A stretch of DNA of 14,202 nucleotides, taken from a bacterium (GTDB lineage Bacteria > DYJV01 > JALVYZ01). Below the pieces are notes generated by a model. That model had not been told where the DNA came from, did no database searches, and saw nothing but the letters and a program-made list of their open reading frames with translations. Positions 1 to 7,956 of the stretch are shown here, in pieces. The stretch lies in assembly GCA_027037705.1 (NCBI GenBank), contig JALVYZ010000119.1, positions 1 through 14,202 on the forward strand, read 5' to 3'. Within the stretch, counting starts at the first letter, position 1; every line of letters begins with the position of its first letter. The translations under genes were made by a program, and so were the position numbers.

Positions 1-1860
1 AAAAAAGCATAATAAAAATATTGCTAAAATATATATTATATACCAATAAATTTTTCCGTTCATTAAAACTCGTGCAGTCAATTTCCCAAAATAAAGAGAT
101 AATCTTTTAAAGAATCCATATGGATAAGTTAAAATATCTGAAACTTCTATAATATAGTTGCCCCCAATAATCCTTTCTTTTGTTCTGTACACTTTTTCTA
201 AAATATGTTCTAAAATATATGAAAAAGCATGTGCAGTAAAATATTCTTCCTCTTTCAAAGGAAGCGCTCCATTAAAAGAATTTACTTTTCTTACCTTTCT
301 TTTTGTCATAGCATAAATTGAAAATGGAGCTAAAAAAAGTACACCTATTACTATAAATAAAAATGTTGGAGAAATTACTCCAAAAATAGGTTTTCCAGAC
401 ATAATTAAAAATGGTTTTGGGACTCCAAGGACACCACCAAGCATATAAGAATATCCAAACATTTTAAAGAGAACTGGAGCAAATATACCAGCACCTATTA
501 CAAAAATAATTAAAAAAATTTCTGAAAATTTCATTAATGTTTGTTTTAATTCTTTAATTTTAATATTATGATGATAGCCAAGTGAAGTATAGCCAATTAG
601 TTTTACCATTGCAAAACCTGTTAAACCAATCCCAAGCGCAATTAAAACTCCAATAAAAGTTCCAAAAAATCTATAAAAATTACCTGCGAATTTAAATGAC
701 TGGAAAATTGACTCTAAAATCATCCATTCTCCAACATAACCAATTAATGGTGGAAAGGCACTTAATGACAAACCAGCAACTAATATTCCAATAGCAGGAA
801 TTTTTCCAACACCCTTCCACACACCTCTTACTTCATCAATTATATGTGCACCATAAGCTTCTTTTGCATGACCTATTGAAATAAAAAGTAGTGATTTTGC
901 AAGTAAATGTCCAAATGCAACAATTAATCCTGCTGCAAAAGCAAAATTTGCCAAATAATGATCTTTTGTTAGAAAAGAAAATGAAATTGCACTTAATATT
1001 AATCCATTATTTTCAACTGTTGAATAGGCTGGTAAAATTTTTAATCCTCCAGTTGCGACAGCTTGCAATGCTCCCCAAAATGCAGATAGTCCACCAAGAG
1101 CTAAAAGAACTACATAAAATTCATTTAAAGGGATATTATAAATTTTTACAACTCTAATAATTCCATATACCCCCATTAAAGTCATTGGAGCACTTAATAT
1201 TGCGCAAACATTTGTAGGAGCTTTATCATAAACATTTTTCATCCATGTATGAAATGGAACTATATCCATTTTTATAAAAAACCCAATTGTTGTGAGTATT
1301 AGGAATAGAGGCTTGCTGTATTTTATTGAAGCAAAACTTATTGAATCTGTTGAAAGGTAAAGAGAAGCAAATCCAATTATTATTAAAACACTTGATAATT
1401 CCCCAAAAGCAAGAAAAGAAAATGCATTTCGATATTTAACCTCTTTTTCTGCTAAAATCATTAAAAATGAGAAAATTGTCATTAATTCCCAGCCTGAAAG
1501 AAATGTAATACCATCATGCGCAATTAAAACTAACAACATTCCTAAAAATATTAAATTTATTATAGATTCTGAAGATTTTCCATGATTTCTTCCATAATTA
1601 ACTGAAAAAATAGATATAGCAAACCAGCTAATTGAGGCAAATATTAAAAAAATAGATGTTAAATGGTCAACTTTTCCAATTAAATTTATATTATCAACTA
1701 AATGAATATAAAAAAGATTATAAGATTGTTTTAACCCACTTACTCCACCTAAGAATGAAAATATTGAAGCAATTGCAGATATCAAATACCCGCCTTTTCC
1801 TCTTGTTGATATGATAAAACCTGCTAAAAATAGTAAAATTGCAATAAAAATAAAAATCAT
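1..1860 (-). CDS. HyfB/NuoL-like antiporter subunit of an Ehr-type complex (3' end cut by window edge)
   Basis: I translated this frame codon by codon from ATG at 1860-1858 to position 1: 620 codons without a stop, so the gene is open at the left edge. It is a very hydrophobic multi-pass protein of the NuoL/HyfB/MrpA-D ion-channel family. Family marks seen: GWELMTIFSF (Glu125), the FIKMDIVPFHTWM segment (Lys198, His204), AYSTVENNG (279-286), HLLAKSLLF (His318, Lys322) and FPPLIGYVGEW (Glu378). These Glu/Lys residues line the proton or Na+ path in the family. Residues 521-600 form a polar stretch, followed by a last hydrophobic segment (604-620), so little is probably missing; E. coli HyfB is about 670 residues. 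It starts 2 bp after the small-subunit gene with AGAGG as ribosome site. The family is certain; HyfB type is inferred from length and context. Confidence 0.93.
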   Translation of the reverse strand, partial: MIFIFIAILLFLAGFIISTRGKGGYLISAIASIFSFLGGVSGLKQSYNLFYIHLVDNINLIGKVDHLTSIFLIFASISWFAISIFSVNYGRNHGKSSESIINLIFLGMLLVLIAHDGITFLSGWELMTIFSFLMILAEKEVKYRNAFSFLAFGELSSVLIIIGFASLYLSTDSISFASIKYSKPLFLILTTIGFFIKMDIVPFHTWMKNVYDKAPTNVCAILSAPMTLMGVYGIIRVVKIYNIPLNEFYVVLLALGGLSAFWGALQAVATGGLKILPAYSTVENNGLILSAISFSFLTKDHYLANFAFAAGLIVAFGHLLAKSLLFISIGHAKEAYGAHIIDEVRGVWKGVGKIPAIGILVAGLSLSAFPPLIGYVGEWMILESIFQSFKFAGNFYRFFGTFIGVLIALGIGLTGFAMVKLIGYTSLGYHHNIKIKELKQTLMKFSEIFLIIFVIGAGIFAPVLFKMFGYSYMLGGVLGVPKPFLIMSGKPIFGVISPTFLFIVIGVLFLAPFSIYAMTKRKVRKVNSFNGALPLKEEEYFTAHAFSYILEHILEKVYRTKERIIGGNYIIEVSDILTYPYGFFKRLSLYFGKLTARVLMNGKIYWYIIYILAIFLLCFF

Positions 1861-1862
1861 TT

Positions 1863-2327
1863 TTAACCTCTATTCATTTGTGTCAATAATATACTTAAAA
1901 TCTCGTCTGGTGATAAATTTTTATCCACTTTAGCAATAACATTTGGAATTTCTATTTCATTAATTTTATTATCAATAGAATTTTCTTCATTTATAATTAT
2001 TACCCCAAAGTCTCCTGGCATTTGATTTATTGTCTCTAAAAGAGGTTGTTTCATTTTCTCATTTACAGGTCCAAGAACAATTAAAATATCTGCATGTCTT
2101 GGAGTTTCTGTAAAAAAAATACCAAATCTGTGAATATTGTATTGTGGAGATTTCAATGCTTTAATAGTAAAATTTAACAAGTTTGAATTTCCAACATCAA
2201 TTACAAAAATATGAAGAGATTTTTTAAAAACTTTATCTTTTAAAGAATATTTAATTTCTCCTTTAAAATCATAATCTTTTTTTTCTGTAAAATAATTTTT
2301 AATTCCAACTAATGGCCACCATTTCAT
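1863..2327 (-). CDS. Cysteine-free NuoB/HyfI (hydrogenase small subunit)-like protein of an Ehr-type complex
   Basis: This 154-residue soluble subunit corresponds to NuoB/HycG/HyfI, which normally carries the [4Fe-4S] cluster next to the catalytic subunit. Backbone matches are clear: SLHIFVID (37-44), SPQY..RFGI (60-70), PRHADILIVLGPV (76-88), a PGDFGVIIIN segment and a C-terminal SPDEIL (139-144). The ligands are gone: the usual D-x-G-S-C-N-G-C-E segment reads D-V-G-N-S-N-L-L-N (44-52), so two Cys became Ser48 and Leu51, and the positions of the third and fourth Cys also lack cysteine. There is no Cys in the whole protein. It is shorter than HyfI (252 residues). It lies 6 bp after the large-subunit gene and 2 bp before the HyfB-like gene. 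The fold is inferred from motifs; a structural role in the complex is likely. Confidence 0.9.
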   Translation of the reverse strand: MKWWPLVGIKNYFTEKKDYDFKGEIKYSLKDKVFKKSLHIFVIDVGNSNLLNFTIKALKSPQYNIHRFGIFFTETPRHADILIVLGPVNEKMKQPLLETINQMPGDFGVIIINEENSIDNKINEIEIPNVIAKVDKNLSPDEILSILLTQMNRG

Positions 2328-2333
2328 AATTTT

Positions 2334-3563
2334 CTACCTCGCAGCATCGGCAAAATTTACTCCAAATGATTCCACTGTAAATACAAAATCTGTAAAAATT
2401 TGACCAACAAGCGAATCTGCTATTGCTTTAAAACCAAAAGTTGATGGAGTTACTATGTAACAATAATCAATTAATCCATTTTTTATGGCAATAAAATAGC
2501 AAATGGTACCAGATGGTGATTCAACAGCAGCAACTTCCTCTCCATCTTTTATTTTATATTCATTTTTTTCACTATCATTGAAATCTTTTATTTTTTGTAA
2601 CTTCTCTTTAATAATATTTATTGATATAAAAATTTCTTCAGCCCGCACTTCCATTCTTGCTAAAGCATCTCCTTCTTCTTTAACAGGAATGTTTGTTAGA
2701 TTGTAATCATTATCAAATTCTCTTAAATCTTCTCTAAAGTTCGATGCCCTTAAAGATGGACCTGTTAAACCAATTTCAAGAGCCTTTTCTGTTGTTATAA
2801 TACCTGTATTATGAAGTCTGTCCAAATAGTTACCACTCTCAAGGCTCTTTTCATATAAATATTTAAATCTTTCCTCCAACTCAGATAATTTATCAATTAT
2901 TTTAACTATTTCTTCTTTGTTCAAATATTTTGAGATCCCGCCAATTTTATTAAAACCAATTAAATGTCTTGAGCCTGAGAAAATTTTATTAACTCTTAAA
3001 GATTCTTCAAAAAGATATTGCATATGTGAAGTATAAACTTTTTGGGCTGCTCCTTTAGCTAATTCTGCTATTACATAAAAATGATTGTAAATCCTCTCAA
3101 GTTCAAGTCCAACTATTCTAAAATATTTTATGACTTCTGGAAGCTTTATTTGTAAAATTTTCTCAATAGTTTTACAATAAGCAAGAGAATGGGAAAATGC
3201 AAAATTACCACACACTGCATTAGCTAATTTTAATCCATCTTCAATAGATTTTCCTTTTAATTTATCTTCAATGTATCTTCTTTTATAACTTACATCTATT
3301 TGAACACCTAAAATTTTTTCTCCATTTGTAAAAATATTATAAATTCCTGCTTCTGCAACCCCACCTGTTACAGGTCCATATCTAAAATTGAAAACTCCTT
3401 CTCCTGTAATTTTCTGATTTCCAATAATTGTGTTTCTATTATTTATTAAATCATAATTTTTTGGTTTAACATAATTTTCACCTGAAACTACAGCTATAGT
3501 TCCATTTTCCTGAAAAATAAACTTTTCTCCATTATAATTAAAAGCACCTAAAAGCTTTTTCAT
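2334..3563 (-). CDS. NuoD/NiFe-hydrogenase large-subunit-like protein lacking the NiFe site (Ehr-type)
   Basis: This 409-residue protein matches the 49-kDa/NuoD and HycE/HyfG family: FRYGPVTGGVAEA (60-72), SYKRRYIEDKLKG (92-104), AVCGNFAFSHSLAYC (116-130), then RASNFREDLRE (272-282) and EGDALARMEVRAEE (297-310). Catalytic NiFe hydrogenases have CxxC near the N-terminus and DPCxxC near the C-terminus. Here the first reads C118-G-N-F121 and the second S-F-G-V-N-F-A-D-A-A-R (399-409), so three of four cysteines are gone and the chain stops at the arginine. It is shorter than E. coli HyfG (555) because the fused NuoC-like N-terminal domain is largely absent. It is best described as the large subunit of an energy-converting-hydrogenase-related complex, not a hydrogenase. 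The gene starts 10 bp after the HyfF-like gene. Its substrate, if any, is unknown. Confidence 0.92.
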   Translation of the reverse strand: MKKLLGAFNYNGEKFIFQENGTIAVVSGENYVKPKNYDLINNRNTIIGNQKITGEGVFNFRYGPVTGGVAEAGIYNIFTNGEKILGVQIDVSYKRRYIEDKLKGKSIEDGLKLANAVCGNFAFSHSLAYCKTIEKILQIKLPEVIKYFRIVGLELERIYNHFYVIAELAKGAAQKVYTSHMQYLFEESLRVNKIFSGSRHLIGFNKIGGISKYLNKEEIVKIIDKLSELEERFKYLYEKSLESGNYLDRLHNTGIITTEKALEIGLTGPSLRASNFREDLREFDNDYNLTNIPVKEEGDALARMEVRAEEIFISINIIKEKLQKIKDFNDSEKNEYKIKDGEEVAAVESPSGTICYFIAIKNGLIDYCYIVTPSTFGFKAIADSLVGQIFTDFVFTVESFGVNFADAAR

Positions 3564-3573
3564 CCCTACTCTC

Positions 3574-4923
3574 TTAGATAAAAAATTTTATATAAAAAAT
3601 TGTTCCAAAAGCTAAAATTACATTAATTAAAGGGATATAATTTACAAGTGATTTTCTCTCTTTAATATCTTTTTCTTTTTCCGTAAAAATCATTAATCCT
3701 GTATAATAATTTGCTGAAATAAATGCTATTGCAATAAATACTCCTAAAATTAATGCCAAAACCCAACCATGAATAGATATTAATTTTGAAAAAATCATAA
3801 TTTCTCCAAAAAATGTAGCAAATGGTGGAGCTCCCGTTGCAGCTAAAACTGCAAAGAATAGACAATAAGCTGTAAAAGGCATTTTTTTAATAAGACCCTT
3901 TACATTTTTTATTTTTGTATCATTAAATCTAATTAAGATATTTCCTGTTAAATAAAAAACAGCTGATTTTGCAAATGCATGTGCCACAATAATAATCAAT
4001 GCCCCTGTTAAAGCCCTGCCACCAAGAGCTATACCAATTAAAACAATTCCCATATTTTCCATTGATGAATAAGCGTACAATCTTTTGTAAAACTTCTGAA
4101 CAGTCATTAAAAGAGAAGATACAATCACTGTTAGAAATCCAAGTACAAACATAAAATTTCTAATTTCATCAGAATAATGAAGATGACTTACTCTATAAAC
4201 ACCATACAATGCAACAGGGAGTAAAACACCAGAAAAAATCGCACTGACTGGAGATGGAGCTTTCCCATGCACATCTGGAAGCCATGTGTGCATTGGGAAT
4301 ATACCTGCTTTTGTCCCATATCCGACAATTGCCAGCAAACTCCCTATAACAATAATTTTATCACCCACAGCACTAAAATTTGCCTGAACTATATTTAAAG
4401 AATGTAACTCACCATAGATAAAAATTGTTCCAAGAAGTGATATTATCAATCCACATGAGACAATTAAAATATATCGCCAAGTAGCTTCAATTGAGTCTTT
4501 TTTTCCTTCAATTGCAATAAGAAGAGCACTTGTAATTGTGGTTGCTTCAATTCCTACCCATAATAATCCTAAATTATTCACCATAACAGAAAAAAACATT
4601 GTAAAAGCAAATAGATTTATCCAAACAAAGTAATGGTTCTTATGAAATAACGGATTTTTTATATATTTCACATAACTAATTGAATATATAACAGTTGCAG
4701 CATAAATAGAGGCAACTGTAAAAATCATTAATTTAGAAATATTATCAATAAACAAATAGTTAGAATGAAAATCAGGATTTTTTAAAATTACAAGCGCAGC
4801 TACCAATACATACAAAGAAATTGCCGCTGATATAAATTCAGCAATACCTTTCTGTTTTAAAATTGAAATTAATCCTGCTATCAGTGTCAAAATTAATGGA
4901 GAATAATAAATTAAATTTTGCAT
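3574..4923 (-). CDS. HyfF/NuoN-type antiporter-like membrane subunit
   Basis: This is a 449-residue multi-pass membrane protein of the Proton_antipo_M family (HyfF/HycC/NuoL-M-N/MrpD). Seen: LLWVGIEATTITSALL (Glu126), GYGTKAGIFPMHTWLPDVHGKAPSP (from 201; Lys205, His212), AYSSMENMG (284-292), HAFAKSAVFYLTGN (Lys319) and GAPPFATFFGEIMIF (Glu374). The charged residues of the ion channel are therefore present. It is somewhat shorter than E. coli HyfF (526). It begins 1 bp after the HyfE-like stop with an AAAGGA ribosome site, so it is probably translationally coupled. With the HyfB-like subunit, the complex has at least two antiporter modules. H+ versus Na+ use cannot be read from the sequence. 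Confidence 0.93.
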   Translation of the reverse strand: MQNLIYYSPLILTLIAGLISILKQKGIAEFISAAISLYVLVAALVILKNPDFHSNYLFIDNISKLMIFTVASIYAATVIYSISYVKYIKNPLFHKNHYFVWINLFAFTMFFSVMVNNLGLLWVGIEATTITSALLIAIEGKKDSIEATWRYILIVSCGLIISLLGTIFIYGELHSLNIVQANFSAVGDKIIVIGSLLAIVGYGTKAGIFPMHTWLPDVHGKAPSPVSAIFSGVLLPVALYGVYRVSHLHYSDEIRNFMFVLGFLTVIVSSLLMTVQKFYKRLYAYSSMENMGIVLIGIALGGRALTGALIIIVAHAFAKSAVFYLTGNILIRFNDTKIKNVKGLIKKMPFTAYCLFFAVLAATGAPPFATFFGEIMIFSKLISIHGWVLALILGVFIAIAFISANYYTGLMIFTEKEKDIKERKSLVNYIPLINVILAFGTIFYIKFFI

Positions 4924-4924
4924 T

Positions 4925-5569
4925 TTATCCTTTTAACTCCTCAATATCTTCCAATTCTTCTGGAACATAATTTTCTCTCAACCTATTAACTATTTCACTA
5001 ATCATAACAATTCCTATTAAATCTAAAACTATACCTGCCTCAAAAATCAGTGGTAATCCTGGAAATAATTTTGCTCCAAACAAGAGAACACCATTTTCCA
5101 TAATCATATACCCTATTAATTGTACAAATGTATTTCTTTTTGAGATTATTAAAAATAGTCCTTGCAATATAATTGCAATTGGAAGTGCTCCACTTCTAAT
5201 TTTTAAAAAGTCATAAAGAGTAAATGTATAAACAATATAACCTAATATAACAACCAAAATTGAGCATATTATTGCTGAAGCAGTCCCCATTATTGGATAT
5301 ATCTCTCTTTCACGCCAATGGTCTTTTGAGAGTCTTACAATCATAAACCTTGGGATAAATACAACTCTAACAATAATTGTTAATATAGCTATCAAATATA
5401 GAGTTTTTTCACCTTTCTCATATCCCAATAACAAAAGGAAAAAAGCCAAAATTAATGAATTTATTGAGAAAGTAATAATGTTTTTCTTAATATAAACCTG
5501 CCATTGAATAAAAACATTTAATAAAATCATTAAGCATGCAGTTAATAAAAATATTTTTTCAACATCCAT
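4925..5569 (-). CDS. HyfE-like membrane subunit
   Basis: This 214-residue protein is close in length to E. coli HyfE (216). Six or so hydrophobic segments are visible. The second half holds GYMIMENGVLLFG (153-165; Glu158), the NuoK/MrpC-like hallmark helix of HyfE, and a further acidic residue at Glu177. The N-terminal half has a basic loop (RFMIVRLSKDHWRERE, 74-89) and the C-terminus is acidic (PEELEDIEELKG). Its ATG shares one base with the stop of the HyfC-like gene (TAATG), which indicates translational coupling. HyfE-type subunits join the NuoH-like heel to the antiporters in group 4 hydrogenases and formate hydrogenlyase. The assignment rests on motif, length and neighbours. Confidence 0.88.
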   Translation of the reverse strand: MDVEKIFLLTACLMILLNVFIQWQVYIKKNIITFSINSLILAFFLLLLGYEKGEKTLYLIAILTIIVRVVFIPRFMIVRLSKDHWREREIYPIMGTASAIICSILVVILGYIVYTFTLYDFLKIRSGALPIAIILQGLFLIISKRNTFVQLIGYMIMENGVLLFGAKLFPGLPLIFEAGIVLDLIGIVMISEIVNRLRENYVPEELEDIEELKG

Positions 5570-6522
5570 TATATAATCCCTTTAGTTGTATAAATTGCTA
5601 TAATACCCAATAATGTAAGCACAAAAATCACTGCCATATAATCAAATATTTTATAAAGCCTATATTTTGAAATAGATTCTTCAAACAATGCAATAATTAT
5701 TATAAGAAATACCATTTTTAGAAAATGGATTATTGAATAAACTAAAACATATCCAAAACTTGCTCCTTCCATTGGGACCCAAAAAGGCAAAGCAAATACA
5801 TTTAAAAATACACTCATCAATAAAAAATGTTTTATATAACTTCCCCATTTATATATAGCAAGCTCTGGTCCTGAATATTCAATCTCCATTGCCTGATCAA
5901 TCATTCCAAATTCAGCCTGAGTTTTTGATTCTATTGGCAATTTCCCTGTTTCAATTATTATTATCATTCCAAATGCTGATGTTATAAATAAGTGGACGAG
6001 AGAAAAGTACCATGAATCTGAAGTTTGAAAGATATTATTTATTACATAAGGATTATTTGTATTTGAAATAATTCCACATAATATAAAAATTAAAACTACC
6101 ATAGGATCAGCCAATGCTCCAACGCTTGCAGCTCTTGCTGTCCCAAGATGAGCATAATTGTTTCTACTATCTAATGCGGTAATTTTCTTAATTAAAGATG
6201 CTGCTCCAAAAATTAAACCTCCACCAATAAAATCAGCAGTAGGACCAAATGTTAATGGGAATCCTGTTATTATTGGAAGGATAATTATTAGAAGCATATA
6301 AAGTGAAAAATTTAAATATGGTCCAATTCTAAAAAGAGGAGATGCAACTTTAGGGACAAGGCTCTCTTTTTTCAATAATTTAAATAAATCGTAATAAGGC
6401 TGGAATACAGAAGGACCTTGTTTAGATTCTATTCTTTCTTTAATTTTTGCTAATATACCAGCAATTAATGGCGATAATAAAATTACATAAACAAGTTGTA
6501 GAATTGAATATATTAGAAGCAA
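5569..6522 (-). CDS. HyfC/HycD/NuoH-like membrane subunit, first gene of the Ehr-type operon
   Basis: This 317-residue protein has the length of HyfC (about 315) and about eight transmembrane segments. The NuoH signatures are present: ERIESKQGPSVFQPYYDLFKLLKKE (29-53), SRNNYAHLGTARAA (119-132) and ETGKLPIES...AEFGMIDQAMEIEYSGPELA (191-222), with the conserved acidic residues (Glu191, Glu198, Glu214, Glu220) that link the redox arm to the membrane arm. In this family it anchors the NuoB- and NuoD-like subunits to the membrane. The start is TTG (6522-6520): AAGGAG sits 6 nt upstream and there is no better in-frame ATG near it. The ribosome site lies inside a strong hairpin (6529-6563), so initiation on this gene is probably regulated and would control the whole operon through coupling. 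Confidence 0.92.
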   Translation of the reverse strand: MLLIYSILQLVYVILLSPLIAGILAKIKERIESKQGPSVFQPYYDLFKLLKKESLVPKVASPLFRIGPYLNFSLYMLLIIILPIITGFPLTFGPTADFIGGGLIFGAASLIKKITALDSRNNYAHLGTARAASVGALADPMVVLIFILCGIISNTNNPYVINNIFQTSDSWYFSLVHLFITSAFGMIIIIETGKLPIESKTQAEFGMIDQAMEIEYSGPELAIYKWGSYIKHFLLMSVFLNVFALPFWVPMEGASFGYVLVYSIIHFLKMVFLIIIIALFEESISKYRLYKIFDYMAVIFVLTLLGIIAIYTTKGII

Positions 6523-6528
6523 GAAAAA

Positions 6529-6563
6529 CTCCTTGTCTAAGTTTCAAAAAACTTAAACAGGAG
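6529..6563 (-). terminator. Leader hairpin that sequesters the ribosome site and resembles an intrinsic terminator
   Basis: On the minus strand, CTCCTGTTTAAGTTT (6563-6549) pairs with AAACTTAGACAAGGAG (6544-6529) around a TTTG loop. This gives 15 pairs with one bulged A and one G-T wobble. The closing CTCC/GGAG helix contains the Shine-Dalgarno AAGGAG (6534-6529) of the HyfC-like gene, and TTTTT (6528-6524) follows at once. The same hairpin could therefore block translation, end transcription, or both. It lies directly downstream of the foldable leader 6563-6627, which can take away its 5' strand. The pairing is seen in the sequence; the regulatory effect is inferred. Confidence 0.72.
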
Positions 6564-6627
6564 CTATTGTCTCACTAAATGTGAGAGGTTAAAGGTGAGC
6601 TCCACCACCTCAAATTATTGAGATAGC
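6563..6627 (-). promoter_or_regulatory. Structured 5' leader, candidate riboswitch of unknown class
   Basis: Read on the minus strand from the likely transcript start. A closing stem GCTAT (6627-6623) / ATAGC (6567-6563) encloses three hairpins: CTCAA-TAAT-TTGAG (6622-6609), GGTG-GAGCT-CACC (6606-6594) and TCTCAC-ATTTA-GTGAGA (6586-6570). Together they can form a four-way junction. Alternatives exist: GAGGT (6611-6607) with ACCTC (6589-6585), and GGAGCT (6603-6598) with AGCTCC (6565-6560). The last pairing would break the closing stem and pull the CTCC strand out of the downstream hairpin, freeing the ribosome site. That is how riboswitch expression platforms work. I could not match conserved cores of classes I know (TPP, SAM-I, cobalamin, glycine, c-di-GMP, fluoride, preQ1, guanidine). 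A protein-bound leader is the main alternative. Confidence 0.55.
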
Positions 6628-6631
6628 GACT

Positions 6632-6660
6632 ATCATATAAAGTTTTTTATGTCAACTCAA
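6632..6660 (-). promoter_or_regulatory. Sigma70-type promoter of the Ehr-type operon
   Basis: On the minus strand, TTGAGT (6660-6655) and TATGAT (6637-6632) are separated by exactly 17 bp. The predicted transcript start is about 6627-6625, at the G that begins the closing stem of the leader. An overlapping TTGACA (6655-6650) is a better -35 hexamer but only 12 bp from TATGAT. The site lies in the 216-bp gap after the preceding gene (stop at 6739), so the complex has its own promoter. The prediction rests on consensus only. Confidence 0.6.
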
Positions 6661-6738: not shown

Positions 6739-7956
6739 TTATGAATAAACTTTTTTAGCGATATTAATAATTTGAAGGGCTCTATCTGTGTATTTATGCT
6801 CTTTAATTACTCTATTATAAGCTTTTTTTATAACTTTTTCTCTTTCATCTTTATAGTGTAAATACTTTTTCACAAGCTCTTGAATTTCATCAATATTTCT
6901 ATAGCATATTACTTCTTCGCCAATTTCAAATAAATCTTCCATTTGTTTTCTAAAATCAGTGATTATAAATCCCTGACATGCTGGAACATCAAATATCCGC
7001 TGATTTACAGCATTTTTCATTTGAAGACTTGTTGTGTTAAAATTTATTTCACTTAAATTATAGATATATGGCAAATCTTCATAATAATTGACTTCAGGAA
7101 AATAATTAATTTTATCTCTAAAATATTTTTTCCAATTCCTATCACCAATTAACAACGGTTTAAATGGTACAATTTCCTTAACACATTTATATCTATAAAT
7201 CCTTGTTGCCTCCCAGGTCACAGTTGTTTCAAAATAGGTTTTAGATTCTTCATCCAATAGTTGAAAAAGCTCATATATTTCAGGAAAAAAATCTTTTATA
7301 AAATTTTCAACACTTCTTTCTGATGTTTCTATAAATTCAACAGCAATCTTTTTATAAAATTTTTTAAAACTTTCAGGAGCTCTTATTTGATTAAAAGTTT
7401 TTTTTACCTGATCTATCATAGTTTTTCCAACAAAAGATATATCTGTTTTCAAACTTTTAAAAGGATTATCAGCCAAATTTATTTTTTTAAATCTATCAGG
7501 ATCTGTCCCAAGAGGCATATAAAAAACATTTTTAAATCCTATTTCTTTCATATCTTGAATATTATCTCTATCCCACACTAAAATCGTGCAAAAATCTGAA
7601 ACATTTTTTTTAAAATTTTTTATTATTAAATTAGGATTGTCTACATACCAAGATAAAATAGGCATCTCAATCTTCTCAAATAAATTCATTAATACGCCTT
7701 CTCTATCAATTCCAAGATGATTAATTGTAAATGTAAAATCTGGTTTAAATGAAGAGATTTTCTCTTTTAAAAGGTTAATAAAATCTTCAGTTAAATATTC
7801 TTTTTCTCCTAACAGAAGGGTATCAAATTCAATATTTAGCTTTCTTAAAGCAGTTATAAATTCCCCAATTAAAAAATATTTTGAGGTTATTAATAAAATT
7901 TTTGGATTATTATGTTGAAATTTCTTATATTTTAATCTTTCAAGATTAAAATTCAT
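6739..7956 (-). CDS. CgeB/DUF3880-type glycosyltransferase (GT-B fold)
   Basis: This 405-residue soluble protein has the layout of CgeB-like glycosyltransferases. The N-terminal half contains PKILLITSKYFLIGEFITALRKL (18-40), HLGIDREG (80-87) and PILSWYVDNP (99-108), typical of the DUF3880 region. The C-terminal half contains NQRIFDVPACQGFIITDFRKQMEDLF (318-343), the strongly conserved Glyco_trans_1_2 nucleotide-sugar site, and ends with a helix (YNRVIKEHKYTDRALQII). Members modify surface glycans, flagellins or spore coat; the acceptor here cannot be predicted. The gene overlaps the GNAT gene by 11 bp and has no clear ribosome site of its own, so it is probably coupled. It looks like the last gene of the long operon; I see no convincing terminator in 6661-6738. 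Confidence 0.82.
   Translation of the reverse strand: MNFNLERLKYKKFQHNNPKILLITSKYFLIGEFITALRKLNIEFDTLLLGEKEYLTEDFINLLKEKISSFKPDFTFTINHLGIDREGVLMNLFEKIEMPILSWYVDNPNLIIKNFKKNVSDFCTILVWDRDNIQDMKEIGFKNVFYMPLGTDPDRFKKINLADNPFKSLKTDISFVGKTMIDQVKKTFNQIRAPESFKKFYKKIAVEFIETSERSVENFIKDFFPEIYELFQLLDEESKTYFETTVTWEATRIYRYKCVKEIVPFKPLLIGDRNWKKYFRDKINYFPEVNYYEDLPYIYNLSEINFNTTSLQMKNAVNQRIFDVPACQGFIITDFRKQMEDLFEIGEEVICYRNIDEIQELVKKYLHYKDEREKVIKKAYNRVIKEHKYTDRALQIINIAKKVYS

Follow-up and report, generated by a model that had tools for sequence, protein, structure and literature searches.

A divergent fluoride-class riboswitch precedes an Ehr-type operon that appears to have lost the redox ligands of its family

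The window, that is, the whole stretch of 14,202 nucleotides analysed here, carries an RNA leader on its minus strand, between an unrelated open reading frame (6739-7956) and a six-gene operon with a TTG start at 6522. This locus raises the question of which signal the leader senses and what the operon behind it makes. An initial annotation had described a leader that could be assigned to no known class and had guessed that its ligand might report on an ion. Judged from its sequence, the window RNA is a slightly divergent variant of the known fluoride riboswitch class, with fluoride as the predicted ligand. We put the probability that it belongs to the crcB/fluoride class and acts as a translational switch, in which fluoride would bind and turn the operon ON, at about 0.88. 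The computed evidence comprises the identity of the aptamer, its covariation, its pairing with the Shine-Dalgarno sequence, its conserved placement and the loss of cysteines from the operon's proteins. The RNA features are as follows.

6632-6660, minus strand: promoter-like site TTGAGT-N17-TATGAT (consensus match only), predicted transcription start near 6625
6551-6618, minus strand: aptamer of the fluoride riboswitch class (crcB RNA motif), from the RF01734 alignment
6594-6609, minus strand: P1 hairpin, GGTG (6609-6606) with CACC (6597-6594), from the RF01734 alignment and covariation
6605, minus strand: G at aptamer position 6 (normally A), the partner of 6569
6598-6603, minus strand: pseudoknot 5' strand GGAGCU, aptamer positions 8-13, from the RF01734 alignment and covariation
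6570-6586, minus strand: P3 hairpin TCTCAC/GTGAGA (6586-6581/6575-6570), from the RF01734 alignment and the fold
6569, minus strand: C at aptamer position 38 (normally U), so that G6-C38 replaces A6-U38
6560-6565, minus strand: pseudoknot 3' strand AGCUCC, positions 42-47, also the anti-Shine-Dalgarno strand
6522-6566, minus strand: expression platform hairpin, in which GCUCCUGUUUAAGUUU pairs with AAACUUAGACAAGGAGUU and hides AAGGAG before the TTG start

The sequence elements that the initial annotation had named were all located on the minus strand: GGAGCT (6603-6598), AGCTCC (6565-6560), GCTAT (6627-6623) and ATAGC (6567-6563). The leader is indeed structured. The segment 6515-6630 of the minus strand folds with -41.6 kcal/mol, compared with -23.0 +/- 3.1 kcal/mol for shuffled sequences (z = -5.97), and none of 200 shuffles was as good. 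The hairpin that had been said to hide the ribosome site is significant when it is taken alone (z = -4.1); the 3' part of the leader base-pairs with the Shine-Dalgarno sequence AAGGAG, after which comes TTTTTCTT. The T run after this hairpin did not qualify in the terminator scan, which found no intrinsic terminator at the leader. The start near 6625 given by the promoter-like site, a consensus match only, implies that the leader should be within the transcript; the region holds five promoter-like sites where 1.4 are expected.

A default scan of the whole window against Rfam at curated cut-offs gave no match. A permissive scan of the leader resulted in a full-length match to RF01734 (model positions 1-64) with 32.7 bits and an E value of 1.4e-7; all other families had E > 1. 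The default scan misses the leader because its score lies just under, by 1.3 bits, the Rfam gathering score of 34 bits, which is a curated threshold and not a biological feature. The window's match was recovered again in a whole-genome RNA scan. The idea of a new riboswitch class is thereby rejected. A match to a known Rfam family, which the initial annotation had listed as a possible refutation, removes the novelty of the class but not the riboswitch itself; the original observation is confirmed, and its interpretation stands for the riboswitch and falls for the unassigned class.

The window has the hallmarks of RF01734: the P1 and P3 hairpins, the long-range pseudoknot between positions 8-13 and 42-47, and the intact core residues A40, U41 and U48. 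The mutation U41A abolishes the response of the B. cereus fluoride riboswitch (PMC11077080). Known structures contain a reversed Hoogsteen pair A40-U48 (PMC11586693; PMC10687018) and a long-range reversed Watson-Crick pair A6-U38 (PMC11586693). With known fluoride riboswitches the leader also shares its position ahead of an operon and an expression platform that uses the pseudoknot 3' strand. It differs from them in its score below the cut-off, in the pair G6-C38 and in that it is predicted to switch at the Shine-Dalgarno sequence and not at a classical terminator.

The nearest large-subunit homologues were picked among 290 that were sampled. They come from three genomes (44-49% identity to the window's protein), and in each of these the same six-gene operon is headed by a fluoride riboswitch that scores above the cut-off. 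A scan with one genome per species gave twelve loci, mostly from Desulfurellales, together with a Bacteroidetes MAG and Desulfurella acetivorans A63. In 20 of 21 related operons, whole-genome RNA scans combined with gene coordinates put RF01734 immediately before HyfC; these come from Desulfurella, Hippea, other Desulfurellales, the Bacteroidetes MAG and the G250 lineage. The remaining one, L068, sits on a truncated contig that lacks HyfC. All but two of these 20 clade leaders, L070 (30.9 bits) and L190 (33.4 bits), score above the RF01734 cut-off. The motif also precedes four more distant Ehr-type operons (G127, G207, G093 and G160), and many hydrogenase or complex I large-subunit loci in the same sample have no RF01734.

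In an alignment of 22 leaders 99.2% of the cells of the structure, pseudoknot included, are paired, and five pairs show changes on both sides. When the partner was slid by 1-3 columns as a control, pairing fell to 40-54%. In this check of homologous leaders, proposed in the initial annotation, the helices covary; the leader is, as had been proposed, of riboswitch type with two exclusive folds ahead of an Ehr-type operon. The competing helix GGAGCU/AGCUCC of that description is present and covaries as well, but its role is that of the ligand-binding pseudoknot of the aptamer. The closing stem GCTAT/ATAGC did not hold up as a conserved or functional element: among 18 homologous leaders the window alone has it, and the other 17 lack it.

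Because AGCUCC pairs both in the pseudoknot and with the Shine-Dalgarno sequence AAGGAG, fluoride should turn the operon ON. In the presence of fluoride the Mg2+-fluoride-bound aptamer would keep AGCUCC (6565-6560) paired to GGAGCU (6603-6598) as the pseudoknot, with AAGGAG left free. In its absence AGCUCC would leave the pseudoknot and pair with AAGGAG, so that the ribosome site would be hidden; the T run after the hairpin may add some termination. This logic, whose direction and ligand are predicted, is that of known transcriptional fluoride switches, in which the pseudoknot overlaps a terminator (PMC11077080), except that here the overlap of AGCUCC is with the Shine-Dalgarno sequence. In the window, the score of AGCUCCU with AGGAGUU (Shine-Dalgarno sequence against positions 42-48) was reached by 2 of 500 shuffles. 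The same complementarity passes the 5% level against shuffles in 12 of 24 leaders; with half of them lacking a significant complement, the expression platform varies. In the minimum-energy fold, from a method that cannot show pseudoknots, the P1 5' strand sits in an upstream hairpin, and hence aptamer formation may depend on folding during transcription. At three other loci (L048:2518-2575, also L184 and L185) the stretch from the aptamer to HyfC holds a Shine-Dalgarno sequence and what may be a short reading frame; the stop of this frame overlaps the HyfC start (ATGCTTAG), which suggests translational coupling.

The aptamer departs from the consensus at positions 6 and 38, where the window retains the pairing with changed base identity. 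Over 63 distinct aptamers, collected without any condition on these two positions, 50 have A/U, 13 have G/C and none is mixed; in the 22-leader alignment there are 13 G-C and 9 A-U pairs. On the sequence level this swap is good evidence for pairing. The large-subunit tree requires two state changes between G-C and A-U, and therefore the many covarying rows represent few independent events; long branches make the placement of L187 and of the window in this tree unsure. With two changes and these long-branch warnings, a reading of the covariation as many events was rejected. Every placeable G6-C38 aptamer among the 63 fronts an Ehr-type operon, while the second fluoride riboswitches of genomes that have G-C Ehr leaders carry A-U. 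Orthologous operons with the same genes in Desulfurella, the G250 lineage and the Bacteroidetes MAG have A6-U38. In the Ehr leaders L065, L070 and L181 position 7 is A, normally U, with no partner change seen.

Fluoride genes surround Ehr operons elsewhere. In the Bacteroidetes MAG (L190, 3129-9806) four fluoride riboswitches lie within 7 kb; they precede a dynamin-like GTPase gene, a DUF6062 gene, a CrcB-DUF190 open reading frame and the Ehr operon, and a pyrophosphatase gene lies downstream. At the G127 locus (L187) Ehr, DUF190 and CrcB genes stand together in one riboswitch-rich island. These islands back fluoride as the signal most likely to be sensed; the guess of an ion was close, with fluoride favoured over Na+, H+ or a metal. 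The CrcB part of the L190 open reading frame is incomplete. Several RF01734 matches in L187 and L188 (G127:C1:3456500-3486000) lie among many repeated transposase-like open reading frames, and the small subunit of the Ehr operon in this island is also degenerate.

Two alternative readings of the RNA have to be weighed. The G6-C38 pair together with the score under the cut-off means that affinity, or even the ligand, could differ in the window, and the G6-C38 subgroup might have a fluoride-class fold that binds another small anion or a metal complex. The confinement of placeable G6-C38 aptamers to Ehr-type operons, next to A6-U38 in other aptamers of the same genomes, would fit such a change, as would the additional exchange of U7 for A in some members. 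However, orthologous operons with the same genes retain A6-U38, Ehr is located in fluoride gene islands, and the Mg2+ and fluoride ions are held by backbone phosphates, so that a swap of a base pair need not alter specificity (PMC11586693). We regard another ligand as very unlikely. Still less probable is a decayed, non-functional riboswitch with constitutive expression of the operon; the low score could be read in this way, but P1, P3, the pseudoknot and A40/U41/U48 are all intact, the departures at positions 6 and 38 compensate each other, and the Shine-Dalgarno hairpin is retained. A working fluoride riboswitch is thus the reading that we prefer.

The window's genome has a second fluoride riboswitch (L002, G000:C231:1775-1846, 59.6 bits) before a dynamin-like GTPase gene. 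A dynamin-type GTPase gene also follows the second fluoride riboswitches checked in G097, G310 and G302, a combination seen in Hippea/Desulfurella-type genomes (L189, L193 and L194) as well as at L190:3129-3203. Pfam Dynamin_N was confirmed with E values of about 1e-28 in the window's genome, G097 and L190. A literature search found no paper joining 'fluoride riboswitch' and 'dynamin'. Ehr as the sole fluoride exporter of this organism is unsupported, since genes for CrcB (C106) and for a CLC protein (C43) are both present in the window's genome. Desulfurella and Hippea genomes gave no match to CrcB; CLC proteins, possibly of the fluoride type, are present in them. A CLC-family gene, which may be of the fluoride type, lies divergently next to fluoride-riboswitch Ehr operons of Desulfurella (L049:8284-9423 and near G302:C18:303211). 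Just 3' of another Ehr operon (L047:9299-9418) is a molybdenum/tungsten cofactor riboswitch (RF01055, 87 bits), which fronts periplasmic binding protein-like open reading frames.

The operon behind the leader consists of six genes.

5569-6522, minus strand: HyfC/NuoH-like membrane subunit, 317 aa, TTG start (Pfam NADHdh, E 2.8e-28)
4925-5569, minus strand: HyfE-like membrane subunit, 214 aa (hydrogenase 4 membrane subunit, E 1.5e-18)
3574-4923, minus strand: HyfF-like antiporter subunit, 449 aa, with conserved E126, K205, H315, K319 and E374
2334-3563, minus strand: NuoD/hydrogenase large-subunit homologue, 409 aa, without nickel-iron cysteine pairs
1863-2327, minus strand: NuoB/small-subunit homologue, 154 aa, with zero cysteines
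1-1860, minus strand: HyfB/NuoL-like antiporter subunit, at least 620 aa, running off the contig, with conserved E125, K197, H318, K322 and E383

The subunits were compared with solved hydrogenase and complex I subunits. In the large subunit the first nickel-iron pair lacks its second cysteine (CGNFAFSH for CGICSFSH), and there is no C-terminal pair. Nickel-iron cysteine pairs and small-subunit iron-sulfur cysteines are missing in all 22 clade operons; none has a cysteine at the cluster positions of the small subunit, and the window's protein has none anywhere. The charged residues of HyfF and HyfB are at least 95% conserved in the clade, also when distant Ehr operons are added. Energy-converting hydrogenase-related (Ehr) complexes are defined by a group-4-like subunit set without nickel-iron ligands (PMC6349859), and this is what the window encodes. 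With Ehr complexes it shares the group-4 hydrogenase/complex I subunit set and the antiporter-like subunits; it differs from them in its compact large subunit (about 409 aa) and in a small subunit without the iron-sulfur cysteines kept by L191, L057 and L186, more distant Ehr-type operons that have a fluoride riboswitch and no nickel-iron ligands. Judged from its sequence, the operon encodes a six-subunit, complex I-like Ehr complex in which the ligands of every redox cofactor known for the family are gone.

Published work has linked the fluoride riboswitch class to 'formate hydrogen lyase' genes since 2010 (Weinberg 2010, PMC2864571; 2024 review, PMC11139923). This naming, and HyfB-, HyfC-, HyfE- and HyfF-like membrane subunits of the kind found in Hyc/Hyf (formate hydrogenlyase/hydrogenase 4), could suggest a working formate hydrogenlyase or hydrogenase that is induced by fluoride to shift metabolism. 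Yet the two large-subunit CxxC motifs and the iron-sulfur small subunit of a formate hydrogenlyase are lacking, and the six genes include neither a ferredoxin-like nor a formate dehydrogenase gene. A working enzyme of this type is extremely unlikely, and judged by these motifs the label does not fit the operons of the clade. Redox activity through an unlinked electron-transfer partner, by analogy with the FDH-Ehr partnership proposed for Riflemargulisbacteria and Saganbacteria (PMC6349859), is also unlikely, but less so: the small subunit, which would carry the cluster nearest to the membrane, is cysteine-free in the window, and the clade has no cysteine at the cluster positions, unlike L191, L057 and L186.

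With redox ligands lost and ion-path residues kept, the complex is most likely a non-redox ion transporter; on balance we favour one for H+ or Na+, possibly coupled to fluoride, that is made when fluoride enters. Mrp-type multisubunit Na+/H+ antiporters, which share antiporter subunits with conserved Glu and Lys, illustrate how a non-redox ion exchanger would work. Mrp lacks the NuoD-, NuoB- and NuoH-like subunits that the window operon carries. On entry as HF, fluoride makes the cell interior acidic. Among the genes that fluoride riboswitches control, Na+/H+ antiporters form the second most frequent class (PMC11139923). Together these two points make it likely that the complex would serve to balance ions or pH, or to export fluoride, under fluoride stress. 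More tentatively, at somewhat less than even odds, all redox cofactors may be gone from this clade of complexes, many of whose leaders have G6-C38; the result would be a transporter that is induced by fluoride, driven purely by ions and perhaps linked to the export of fluoride itself.

A literature search for the fluoride riboswitch together with energy-converting hydrogenase found no paper, which is not proof of absence. The interest of the locus is that of a target: a cofactor-less Ehr complex under predicted fluoride control, which makes its function directly testable. Desulfurella acetivorans A63, a sequenced isolate that shares this riboswitch and operon and in whose genome a Pfam search found no CrcB exporter, offers a start for work on fluoride tolerance. 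Should the operon protect against fluoride, 'formate hydrogenlyase' would be a misnomer within the fluoride regulon, at least where this clade is concerned. A relative of complex I without cofactors, if that is what these operons encode, would be a clean system for studying how membrane arms move ions without electron transfer.
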